In this document: piece after piece, positions 10,280 through 23,693 of the stretch
Layout: every line of letters starts with the position of its first letter
How positions within the stretch are numbered: the stretch's first letter is position 1
Source: Chitinophagaceae bacterium
GTDB lineage: Bacteria > Bacteroidota > Bacteroidia > Chitinophagales > Chitinophagaceae
Assembly (NCBI GenBank): GCA_025363075.1
Contig: JANYEP010000206.1
Location: 1 to 32,167, forward strand
DNA length: 32,167 nt
Direction of reading: 5' to 3'
Program-made: the position numbers and the translations under genes
The notes under the pieces: model-generated
What the model saw: the letters and a program-made list of their open reading frames with translations, nothing else
The model's database searches: none
What the model was told of the DNA's origin: nothing

Positions 10280-11662
10280 TTATCTTTCAAAGTACAAACT
10301 GTTACCACCAAGTTGGTTGAAACTAAATTCAATCTTGAAAACAATGTCATAAATTGTTGCAATGTCTAAGCCAATACCATAAGTATAAAGCAGTTTATTG
10401 TTGAGCTTATTGTAGTTCACATAAGGGTTTTGTACATAACCAACATTAGCGAAAATCTTGCCATAAAACTTAAATGGAATTTTGTTGTAAGTATCACCTT
10501 TTACAGGGAGATTCAAATTTTTGTTAAACAAATTTGTACCAACAGTTAATTTGTTTAACACACCAGCCATTCCATCTACAACATAATATTCTAAACCCTG
10601 CACTTGAAAACTTCCATAGCCCAATAAGTTTTGATTTATAAAATTGGGATTATAAGGAAACTTAATGGTAGCAATAGTTTCATTGCGAATGAATGATTTT
10701 TTTGAAATAGGTCTTGCAAATAAAACTGCTCCTGTTATTTGCGTAAGGTTGGACTCTTTATCCCAGCCACGTTCATACAAGCTAATGCTTCCTATGAATC
10801 CTTTTGTTGGATAAGCATTATAGTTGGTGTTGAAATATTGAAGGCTATAAGAAAAATCAAGATAGTTAAGTGATGTAATGCTATTGCCATAATAGTTTGG
10901 GTTAACAATAGCAACAGAATCATTTACTTTTTCAGCAGTGTAACCCAACCTAAACGTGTGTCTAAAGTGTTTGTTGGGTCGCATTGTAAAGGCAGCATCA
11001 ATTTTTGTGTAGGTTTTTGCATCGCCATTTTGCAGTTTAAAAAACTGTTGCTTGTTACTCGAGTCTGTTTGGTAATTTACTTCTTTTTGTTTCGATTGAG
11101 TAATACCAATACTAAATCCATTGGTTAGTTTTTTATTGACAAATGGACGATTGTAGTTTAATATCATTTGCCTGTTGTACCCAAAAATTAACCAAGCATT
11201 TAATCTATCATTATTACCTGAAAAATTGTTGTGGTAAAACTTTAAACCATAATTAACCCTATTCAAATCGCCGTGCTGATTAACCAACCAATCGTTAAAG
11301 TTTCTATCAACCAATTTAAAATATGGCAATGGAAAAATATACCAACGCTCTTTAAGCAATACAATAATTGCAACCTTGTTGCTATCTTGTTTTGCTACGT
11401 TAACAGTTACCTCAACAAACAAGGTTGTATTAAAAATAAACTCTCTACTTTGTTTTACTTTTTTTGCAAGCTCATCTACAGCAACAGTATCGCCTTTTTT
11501 CAAAAACATTTCCCTAAGAACAATATTTGTCTTTGTTTTTTTATTGCCAGAAATAATAATATCACCAATAATTATATGTGCTTTTTGCTGCGATAATGAA
11601 TCGCTTTGTGCAAATACATTCACGCTCAATAAAACCAAAATAACCAATAGGAGAAACTTCAT
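10280..11662 (-). CDS. POTRA-domain outer-membrane protein (BamA/TamA-like, Omp85 superfamily)
   Basis: Signal peptide. Single POTRA-like region 'IIIGDIIISGNKKTKTNIVLREMFLKKGDTVAVDELAKKVKQSREFIFNTTLFVEVTVNV' followed by a beta-barrel ending in '…FNQLGGNSLYFER'. Confidence 0.85.
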   Translation of the reverse strand: MKFLLLVILVLLSVNVFAQSDSLSQQKAHIIIGDIIISGNKKTKTNIVLREMFLKKGDTVAVDELAKKVKQSREFIFNTTLFVEVTVNVAKQDSNKVAIIVLLKERWYIFPLPYFKLVDRNFNDWLVNQHGDLNRVNYGLKFYHNNFSGNNDRLNAWLIFGYNRQMILNYNRPFVNKKLTNGFSIGITQSKQKEVNYQTDSSNKQQFFKLQNGDAKTYTKIDAAFTMRPNKHFRHTFRLGYTAEKVNDSVAIVNPNYYGNSITSLNYLDFSYSLQYFNTNYNAYPTKGFIGSISLYERGWDKESNLTQITGAVLFARPISKKSFIRNETIATIKFPYNPNFINQNLLGYGSFQVQGLEYYVVDGMAGVLNKLTVGTNLFNKNLNLPVKGDTYNKIPFKFYGKIFANVGYVQNPYVNYNKLNNKLLYTYGIGLDIATIYDIVFKIEFSFNQLGGNSLYFER

Positions 11663-20757: not shown

Positions 20758-20897
20758 CGGGCAAAAGTAATGTTTAAAGACATATTGAAATCAATCGTTT
20801 TATTTAAACAAAAAATAGTAAACACAAACACTATCAAAATAAATTTTTACTCTTAAGTAAGCGTTTGCAGTATTTTCGGCAAATCAATTTTAATGCG

Positions 20898-23693
20898 TTA
20901 ATGAAATACTTTTTTATACTGTTTAGTACCACATTTTTTTCTTGCCAATTATTTGCACAAAGTGCTTCAAAGCCATACTGGCAGCAGCAAGTAAGTTACA
21001 ATATTGCAGTTTCTTTAAACGATAAAGACAACACTATTGATGCCTTGGAAAAAATTGTTTACACAAATAATTCACCTGATACTTTAAAGTTTATTTGGTT
21101 TCACATTTGGCAAAATGCATATAAAAATGATAAAACTGCGTTTAGCGAACAACTATTAATAAACAGCAGAACAGATTTTTATTTTAGTGATGAAAAAGAT
21201 AGAGGTTATACAAATAGACTTGATTTTAAAGTTGATGAAACAAGTGCAAAAATTGAAGCTCATCCACAATATATAGACATTGTGAAACTATTGCTACCAA
21301 AGCCTTTGCCACCAAATCAAAGCATTGCAATTGAAACTCCCTTTCATTCAAAATTGCCTTATAATTTTTCTCGTGGTGGGCATATCGGTAAAGATTATCA
21401 GCTAACACAATGGTATCCAAAACCAGCAGTATATGACAACAGAGGTTGGCACGAAATGCCATACCTTGATCAAGGTGAATTTTATAGTGAGTTTGGTAAT
21501 TTTGAAGTGAACATAACTGTGCCAGGAAATTATTTAGTTGCAGCTACAGGTGAGTTGAAAACAGCATCAGAACTGGATTTGCTGAAGAAGTTGGGCAAAA
21601 TGAAACTTGCAGAACAGCCAAACTATTTAGTTGAAGATGAAGTTGAAATAAAGAAAAGCTTTTTTCCTGCAAAGCCTATTAAAAAAGTAGCGATTGCAGC
21701 AGCAAAAGAAACAAAAAATATGGAAACAAAAACACTTCTTTTTACACAAAATAATGTTCACGATTTTGCCTGGTTTGCAAGTAAAAACTTCTTAGTTCAA
21801 TATGATACTGTGCAATTAAATAGTAAAGTAGTTGACTGTTTCAATTTTATTTCAAAAAGTAGAGAAAGAAGATGTAAAAACAATGTTCGCTTTATAAAAT
21901 CTACATTAAAAAACTATGGCAAATGGATTGGAGAATATCCCTACAACACAGCAACAGTAGTAGTTGGCAAGCAAAATAAAGAGGATGGAATGGAATATCC
22001 AACCATAACTTACATTAATATTGATGATAGTTCTTGGAGTATCGGCGAAATAATTTCTCACGAACTTGGACACAATTGGTTTTATGGAATACTTGCCAGC
22101 AACGAAAGAGAACATCCGTGGATGGATGAAGGGATGAATAGTTTTTATGATAAACGAAGTGAAGTTGAACCAAAGATTGTAAATAGCACTATGAATATGT
22201 TTTTTAATTCATTAATTAAAATTCACAAAAACATCGGGATAGACACAAATTCATTAGCTTATCCAAAGTATTACTATGACTTGATTGTTTATGAAAAAGC
22301 TGCTATTTGGATGAAGCAATTAGAAAAATATTTGGGTAAAAATGTTTTTGATTCTGCAATGAATGTTTATTATAAACAATACCAATTTAAGCATCCATAT
22401 CCTCAAGATTTCAAGAGAATAATTGAACAGGTTTCTGGCAAAAATATTGATAAATTGTTTGCAAAATTATATAACAAAGAACCATTTGATAGGTCAATTA
22501 AAAAAACAATTAAACCAGCGTTTTTCTTTCCATTTAAAGAGACAAATAAATATAATCACATTTCAATTACTCCAACTGTTTCATATAATTTTTATGATGG
22601 AATACGCTTGGGCATTGCATTACACAACTATCAACTGCCTTTACCCAAGTTTCAATTTGCGATAAATCCAAGTTATGGAACGAATAGCAAAGCATTCAAT
22701 TTTTTTGGACGAGCATCTTATAATATTTATAAAAAGAAATCTTGGTTGGAAATTGCAACAAGTTTTCAAAAATATACTTACGATGATTTTAGACCAGATG
22801 CAACAAACGAACATTATTATTTATCCGTTAATCGTTTTGTACCATCAATAAAATACACGATGTATAAAAATGATTTACGCTCCACAGAACGTACTGTTAT
22901 TGGGTTTAAAACATTTTACTTGAACACACAAAACTTAAATTATACAAACAAAGACACGAACAATATTTATTCAACAAAGTCTTATATCAATCGTTTATAC
23001 ATCACAAAATTTGATACCAGAATTTTATATCCTTATAGTTTAAATTTGAACATTGATCAAACAGAAGACTTGCTACGACTGGCTTTCACAGCAAAAGAGT
23101 TTTTTAATTATGGCAAAAGAAACGATGGTGTTGCTGCTCGTTTTTTTGCAGGAAAAATATTTTACACCAAATCAAAAACATTTTTAACACAATATAATAA
23201 TAGTCAATATCAATTAAACCTAAGTGGTGCAAATGGTTATGAAGACTATACTTTCAGTGATTATTTTATTGGAAGAAGGGAGGTGCAAAGAGGTTGGCGT
23301 GGACAACAAATTATGGAGCGTGATGGGTTTTTTAAAGTAAGAACAGATTTGCTTGGAAGCAAAATTGGCGTTACTGATGATTGGTTAATGTCAGTAAATT
23401 TAAACTTCGATTGCCCAACTTTTCCAACCCTGAAAGCCTTTGTGGACGTTGGTACTTATGCAGATGCTTGGAATGATAATTCAACAAATGGTAGATTTTT
23501 ATACGATGCAGGTTTGCAACTATCTTTCTTAAAAAATGGTATCAATATTTATTTTCCAATCCTTAACAGTAAAGATTTTCGAGATTATAACCAATCATAC
23601 ATTGGTAAAAATATTTTTGCAAAATCAATTAGTTTTAGCATCAATATTCAAAATTTACAACTCAATAAACTGAGTAGAAATATTCCTTTATAA
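20898..23693 (+). CDS. M1 family metallopeptidase with C-terminal outer-membrane beta-barrel-like domain
   Basis: Signal peptide from ATG 20898 (MKYFFILFSTTFFSCQLFAQ). 'DGMEYPTITYIN' and 'HELGHNWFYGILASNEREHPWMDEGMNSF' (HEXXH at 22059-22073). The ~400-residue C-terminus is beta-rich with 'FIGRREVQRGWRGQQ'. ORF track starts at 20865. Confidence 0.9.
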   Translation, partial: LMKYFFILFSTTFFSCQLFAQSASKPYWQQQVSYNIAVSLNDKDNTIDALEKIVYTNNSPDTLKFIWFHIWQNAYKNDKTAFSEQLLINSRTDFYFSDEKDRGYTNRLDFKVDETSAKIEAHPQYIDIVKLLLPKPLPPNQSIAIETPFHSKLPYNFSRGGHIGKDYQLTQWYPKPAVYDNRGWHEMPYLDQGEFYSEFGNFEVNITVPGNYLVAATGELKTASELDLLKKLGKMKLAEQPNYLVEDEVEIKKSFFPAKPIKKVAIAAAKETKNMETKTLLFTQNNVHDFAWFASKNFLVQYDTVQLNSKVVDCFNFISKSRERRCKNNVRFIKSTLKNYGKWIGEYPYNTATVVVGKQNKEDGMEYPTITYINIDDSSWSIGEIISHELGHNWFYGILASNEREHPWMDEGMNSFYDKRSEVEPKIVNSTMNMFFNSLIKIHKNIGIDTNSLAYPKYYYDLIVYEKAAIWMKQLEKYLGKNVFDSAMNVYYKQYQFKHPYPQDFKRIIEQVSGKNIDKLFAKLYNKEPFDRSIKKTIKPAFFFPFKETNKYNHISITPTVSYNFYDGIRLGIALHNYQLPLPKFQFAINPSYGTNSKAFNFFGRASYNIYKKKSWLEIATSFQKYTYDDFRPDATNEHYYLSVNRFVPSIKYTMYKNDLRSTERTVIGFKTFYLNTQNLNYTNKDTNNIYSTKSYINRLYITKFDTRILYPYSLNLNIDQTEDLLRLAFTAKEFFNYGKRNDGVAARFFAGKIFYTKSKTFLTQYNNSQYQLNLSGANGYEDYTFSDYFIGRREVQRGWRGQQIMERDGFFKVRTDLLGSKIGVTDDWLMSVNLNFDCPTFPTLKAFVDVGTYADAWNDNSTNGRFLYDAGLQLSFLKNGINIYFPILNSKDFRDYNQSYIGKNIFAKSISFSINIQNLQLNKLSRNIPL

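Follow-up and report, generated by a model that had tools for sequence, protein, structure and literature searches.

An M1 metallopeptidase and a C-terminal barrel that computation assigns to the Omp85 fold are joined here in one polypeptide; this is an old fusion that occurs widely in Bacteroidota. The gene lies at 20901..23693 on the forward strand of the window, by which we mean the whole 32,167-nucleotide stretch of DNA that was analysed (Chitinophagaceae bacterium, contig JANYEP010000206.1), and it encodes 930 amino acids followed by a stop codon. Barrels of the Omp85 kind normally insert proteins into the bacterial outer membrane or pass them through it, so that Omp85 proteins serve to build and maintain this membrane; to our knowledge few enzyme-Omp85 fusions have been described so far. 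The product is likely a Sec-exported, two-domain M1 aminopeptidase that is anchored at the outer membrane by its Omp85 barrel and faces the periplasm. The protein would be exported by Sec and lose a type I signal peptide, its C-terminal 16-strand Omp85-superfamily barrel would anchor it in the outer membrane, and the two-domain M1 part would hang on the periplasmic side, where other Omp85 proteins have their POTRA domains. There, on the inner side of the outer membrane, it would remove N-terminal residues from unfolded chains or from peptides such as newly imported oligopeptides. We infer the outer-membrane location, the periplasmic side, the activity and the substrates, along with any gating of the barrel.

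The gene, its export signal and the peptidase half

The open frame runs without interruption from 20865 to 23693 (+). ATG 20901 is the likely translation start because it aligns with the start of a homologue from the same genus (L065) and because a signal peptide begins there; residues are numbered from this codon. A preliminary description of this DNA had placed the first base at 20898, which belongs to a Leu codon immediately 5' of the likely ATG; the open reading frame it described was borne out. Residues 1-19 (20901..20957, +) are a type I signal peptide, predicted from the sequence and from the pattern in homologues, with cleavage expected between FA and Q (19/20), leaving Gln at position +1. 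A cut after A, G, S or T and before Q is found in 100 of 115 homologues, and the site in the window protein agrees with the Bacteroidetes "Q-rule", by which Gln occupies +1 after signal-peptide cleavage (PMC5837995). Lipoprotein anchoring was considered and rejected: only 4 of 120 M1-barrel frames have a lipobox-like pattern, and the Cys near the signal peptide of the window protein is absent from the same-genus homologue.

Residues ~25-522 (20973..22466, +) comprise domains I and II of an M1 peptidase, as judged by PF01433 (E 3.6e-17; 63.1 bits against a gathering score of 27.7) and by M1 aminopeptidases of the PDB that match it in sequence and in fold. The homologue alignment identifies the substrate-anchoring motif GMEYP, equivalent to GxMEN, at residues 363-367 (21987..22001, +), the zinc motif HELGH at residues 387-391 (22059..22073, +) and the third zinc ligand, E410 (22128-22130, +), so that both the HExxH(x18)E zinc site and the GxMEx motif are intact. 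The HELGH/E410 site is invariant across 53 aligned homologues. Among 115 fusions, which are the homologues retrieved through M1 searches, the zinc site is present in 112-113 and the M1 catalytic residues are conserved in 112. From these residues we infer that the M1 half would be an active zinc aminopeptidase. The preliminary description had recognised an M1 peptidase in the N-terminal part, rightly, and had called it complete; this holds for the catalytic residues but not for the domains, as the protein has neither domain III (beta-sandwich) nor domain IV (helical). Two-domain M1 enzymes exist, however, and domains III and IV are therefore not a defining requirement of family M1. A fold search with the full-length model returned the two-domain M1 of Deinococcus radiodurans with a TM-score of 0.77 (normalised to that target), which shows that two domains alone make a known M1 unit.

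The predicted barrel, its loop 6 and its orientation

The C-terminal part was modelled with AlphaFold2 using a 53-sequence family alignment, both in the whole protein (pLDDT 89.3, pTM 0.84) and as residues 525-930 separately (pLDDT 90.3, pTM 0.87). An all-beta C-terminus had been proposed from about 22540, and the models place its onset at residue 551 (about base 22551). They contain approximately 16 strands, the last of them short, in a predicted Omp85-type barrel covering residues 551-914 (22551..23642, +), followed by a 16-residue C-terminal tail (to 23690, +). The barrel was also searched separately because Foldseek with the full-length model was dominated by M1 enzymes. Against the PDB, the barrel alone gave Omp85-superfamily structures in 50 of 50 among the matches listed (best E 1e-8), including CdiB, Sam50, TamA, BamA, FhaC and Toc75. 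TM-scores to Omp85 structures were 0.37-0.49 with large rmsd, and such moderate values indicate a relation at the level of the fold.

Profile comparison points the same way. With hhalign, the family profile matched Bacteroidota Omp85 barrels at E 1.6e-5, and the negative controls gave 0.85 (reversed profile), 0.52 (TonB barrels) and 0.41-0.96 (ten column shuffles). An independent set of 20 homologues from two further families, f4 and f5, matched Omp85 barrels at E 2.8e-6. Subclade sets fell below significance when used alone, the sequences of the window's own clade at E 0.04 and a Hymenobacter set at E 0.16. The Omp85 models of Pfam (including PF01103) and NCBIfam matched the barrel in 0 of 53 family members, and single-sequence searches of Pfam, NCBIfam and PDB sequences with the barrel gave no match. 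The missing Pfam match and the modest TM-scores would fit a soluble beta domain, or a porin-type or TonB-type barrel of the outer membrane, that resembles Omp85 by convergence. This is very unlikely, given that Omp85 structures made up all of the fold matches listed, that the TonB and shuffled controls were negative and that the independent f4/f5 set gave the same result. Computation thus shows the C-terminus to be a predicted barrel of Omp85 fold. What the preliminary description had proposed, an M1 peptidase joined directly to an Omp85-like barrel, is upheld by AlphaFold2, Foldseek and profile comparison in agreement: the C-terminus is modelled as a membrane barrel with Omp85 neighbours and not as a beta-sandwich or ARM-repeat domain, and its profile matches Omp85 barrels but not the controls.

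The VRGF motif in loop 6 is important for BamA and FhaC function. In the model, a 72-residue loop between strands 11 and 12 (residues 756-827; 23166..23381, +; AlphaFold2 and homologue alignment) sits at the position of Omp85 loop 6, and across the 115 fusions it contains D782 in 113 and R792, Q803 and G809 in 112 each. The canonical [VIL]RG[FY] motif is absent from these 115 fusions, and the Arg conserved in 112 of them, R792, is a different one. The string QRGW, once read as the [VI]RG[FY] motif of loop 6, is present, but its R797 is a one-residue insertion private to the window protein (1 of 115), and that assignment has to be dropped. The FVDVG pattern proposed along with it is genuine and conserved: strand 13 (LKAFVDVGTY, residues 844-853; 23430..23459, +) carries the Omp85-like [FY]xDxG pattern, with F/Y847 in 113, D849 in 106 and G851 in 99 of the 115 fusions.

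A 28-residue linker (residues 523-550; 22467..22550, +) separates the two halves. It stands at the site of a third domain (D3), the M1 beta-sandwich of ~90 residues, which most homologues outside the window's clade have between M1 and barrel. This insert could have been taken for a POTRA domain; that was ruled out because the same domain is found in M1 enzymes that have no barrel, which identifies it as M1's own beta-sandwich. No POTRA domain was found in the window protein by Pfam or by inspection of the linker, nor in the homologues, which have the M1 beta-sandwich there instead. POTRA-less Omp85 subfamilies exist, according to a survey of the superfamily (PMC4104836). Elsewhere in the window, at 10280-11662 (-), a second Omp85-like gene encodes a signal peptide and one POTRA domain (PF07244), with a C-terminal PF01103 match below threshold (19.6 bits).

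Could the barrel be an Omp85 remnant that only keeps the enzyme attached to the outer membrane and lets nothing pass? The lack of POTRA domains and the altered loop-6 motif would fit such a passive tether, and PlpD suggests that an Omp85 scaffold can be put to new uses (PMC11116518). Across the family, however, particular residues of the loop and of strand 13 are strongly conserved, enzyme-dead homologues included, and we regard a purely passive barrel as possible but doubtful.

Orientation bears on a different alternative. In the AlphaFold2 barrel, the N- and C-terminus lie at the end with turns of 2-8 residues, and the long loops are at the opposite end. If the barrel delivered its M1 domain to the surface of the cell in the style of type Vd secretion, the enzyme would digest external peptides, a useful activity outside the cell; some Omp85 relatives, FhaC among them, do translocate proteins. 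Bacteroidota already export proteases through type IX secretion, however, and the M1 domain is large and N-terminal to the barrel, which the chain enters on the short-turn side. PlpD, the closest precedent for such display, was originally described as secreting its enzyme (PMC4104836), but the enzyme domain, long thought secreted, was shown in 2024 to stay periplasmic (PMC11116518). Chain entry on the short-turn side, together with the PlpD precedent, makes a tethered, periplasm-facing enzyme likelier than self-secretion, and surface display appears quite improbable.

Spread of the fusion and its enzyme-dead homologues

A search for the same architecture, a check that the preliminary description had suggested, found it in many Bacteroidota genera. 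The single-frame M1-barrel fusion recurs in dozens of genera, which argues that it is neither chance nor a gene-fusion artefact, and its taxa include Chitinophagaceae, Hymenobacteraceae, Saprospiraceae, Lewinellaceae, Crocinitomicaceae and others. The C-terminal region occurs in 63 of 100 sampled genomes of the window's family, and in 58 of 297 genomes sampled across the phylum the barrel is matched over its full length with 150 bits or more. In the M1 tree the window protein falls in a clade of 67 proteins that lack the third domain (support 99), consisting of 49 M1-barrel and 18 M1-only proteins, the M1-only group having support 100. On these sequences, the M1 beta-sandwich domain was lost in the window's clade, and the sister paralogue lost the barrel and kept M1. 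At five loci (L075, L077, L085, L177 and L192) a barrel-less secreted M1 paralogue of ~524-567 aa lies directly upstream of the M1-barrel gene. Two M1-barrel homologues (L187, 5934-8940, and L122) are split over separate frames, by pseudogene formation or sequencing error.

Genes next to the fusion recur in 38-46 Chitinophagaceae loci (e.g., L070, L074, L162, L171) and encode a Gfo/Idh/MocA oxidoreductase, a bacterial sugar transferase, IspD and an unannotated protein of ~309 aa. They are absent around the window's copy, for which the conserved-neighbour analysis gave no functional lead.

In families f4 and f5, all 20 homologues fetched (L251-L270) keep the M1-sandwich-barrel arrangement and have no HExxH. 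E365, H387 and E388 are substituted in 20 of 20 and E410 in 19 of 20, and R747, Q803, G809, Y847 and D849 of the barrel signature are retained in every one; each of 30 f5 genomes has the barrel, as do 5 of 6 f4 genomes. Within the window's clade or close to it there are also single enzyme-dead M1-barrel homologues (L084, 5538-8114, whose catalytic segment is largely rewritten, L171 and L179). By this computation, catalysis appears to have been lost at least four separate times with the barrel retained. Assembly errors could be among the three single cases, but they are hardly an explanation for f4 and f5, where 20 cases in two families show consistent replacement residues. Since the enzyme is dead in these families, peptidase activity is not the whole of the conserved function, and we would argue for a separate conserved function, carried by the barrel or by the M1 fold as a binder of peptides. 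The barrel therefore probably does more than anchor, in that the lineages without catalysis have retained both it and an M1-fold domain that would be able only to bind.

Such a function could be that of an insertase or translocator of Omp85 type that binds its substrates through the M1 fold in place of POTRA domains, with catalysis a secondary trait that depends on lineage. The f4 and f5 homologues, which have lost the catalytic site and kept the barrel signature, the barrel in all 30 f5 genomes and the three further independent losses near the window's clade all favour it. Set against this, most other lineages keep the catalytic residues almost unchanged, the canonical VRGF motif is missing and the sister paralogue retained M1 and dropped the barrel; we consider this reading rather unlikely. 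Somewhat further along the same line, and unlikely as a whole, the M1 fold may have taken over the POTRA role in a distinct Omp85 machine of Bacteroidota and capture the N-termini of peptides where a gated barrel opens to the periplasm, trimming them in some lineages and only binding them, as a pseudopeptidase, in f4 and f5, with the barrel serving import, insertion or quality control linked to recognition of the N-terminus.

The periplasm-facing M1 aminopeptidase that we favour would have a further implication. Bacteroidetes block protein N-termini with pyroglutamate, which was suggested to protect them from the cell's own periplasmic proteases (PMC5837995). A resident periplasmic aminopeptidase, if real, would bear on this blocking, although that is speculation.

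Comparison with known systems

A fusion of a peptidase to Omp85 that is widespread in Bacteroidota and yet missed by Pfam and NCBIfam widens the range of the Omp85 superfamily. The loss of catalysis with the barrel kept, and the converse in the sister paralogue, raise the question of which half does the conserved work. We found no literature on M1-Omp85 proteins, in a search whose coverage was incomplete, so that absence is no proof. The fusion is not mentioned in the passages covered of recent papers on BAM and TamL of Bacteroidota and of a 2026 BAM review. Heinz and Lithgow distinguished ten Omp85 subfamilies, and the section of their survey consulted here describes no M1 fusion (PMC4104836).

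Several known proteins resemble one half of the fusion. The TamL/BamA-like Omp85 proteins of Bacteroidota have the barrel fold in common with it and a detectable profile similarity, but they differ in having POTRA domains, often a lipid anchor and clear PF01103 matches. The two-domain M1 of Deinococcus radiodurans (PDB 6a8z, 6iff, 6kp1) shares domains I and II with the fusion, as well as the zinc site and the GxMEx motif; unlike the fusion, it and other M1 aminopeptidases have no barrel. The same difference sets apart the secreted M1-only paralogues (~530 aa; Niastella, Flavitalea, Pedobacter and others), which form the sister clade of the window's M1 and are sometimes encoded by the adjacent gene.

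Closer in architecture are Omp85 barrels with other N-terminal domains. PF00149 is the calcineurin-like metallophosphatase family. It characterises the "Metallo" subfamily of Omp85 proteins, which likewise has a non-POTRA N-terminal domain on an Omp85 barrel and is called a "metalloprotease", yet is not an M1 peptidase (Heinz and Lithgow, 2014; PMC4104836). That label on PF00149 Omp85 proteins could mask that a true peptidase-Omp85 fusion is something different. The PlpD-type patatin-Omp85 proteins (PL-Omp85, "type Vd") similarly combine a signal peptide, an N-terminal enzyme and a C-terminal 16-strand Omp85 barrel in one chain. The present fusion differs from them in its enzyme, an M1 metallopeptidase and not a patatin lipase, in having no POTRA domain that could be found, in its loop-6 motif and in its occurrence in Bacteroidota. 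Pfam finds no patatin domain in the window protein, which places it outside type Vd as defined by patatin plus POTRA. Fusions of enzymes to Omp85 barrels were thus already known, and we rate M1 as a new enzyme partner among them.
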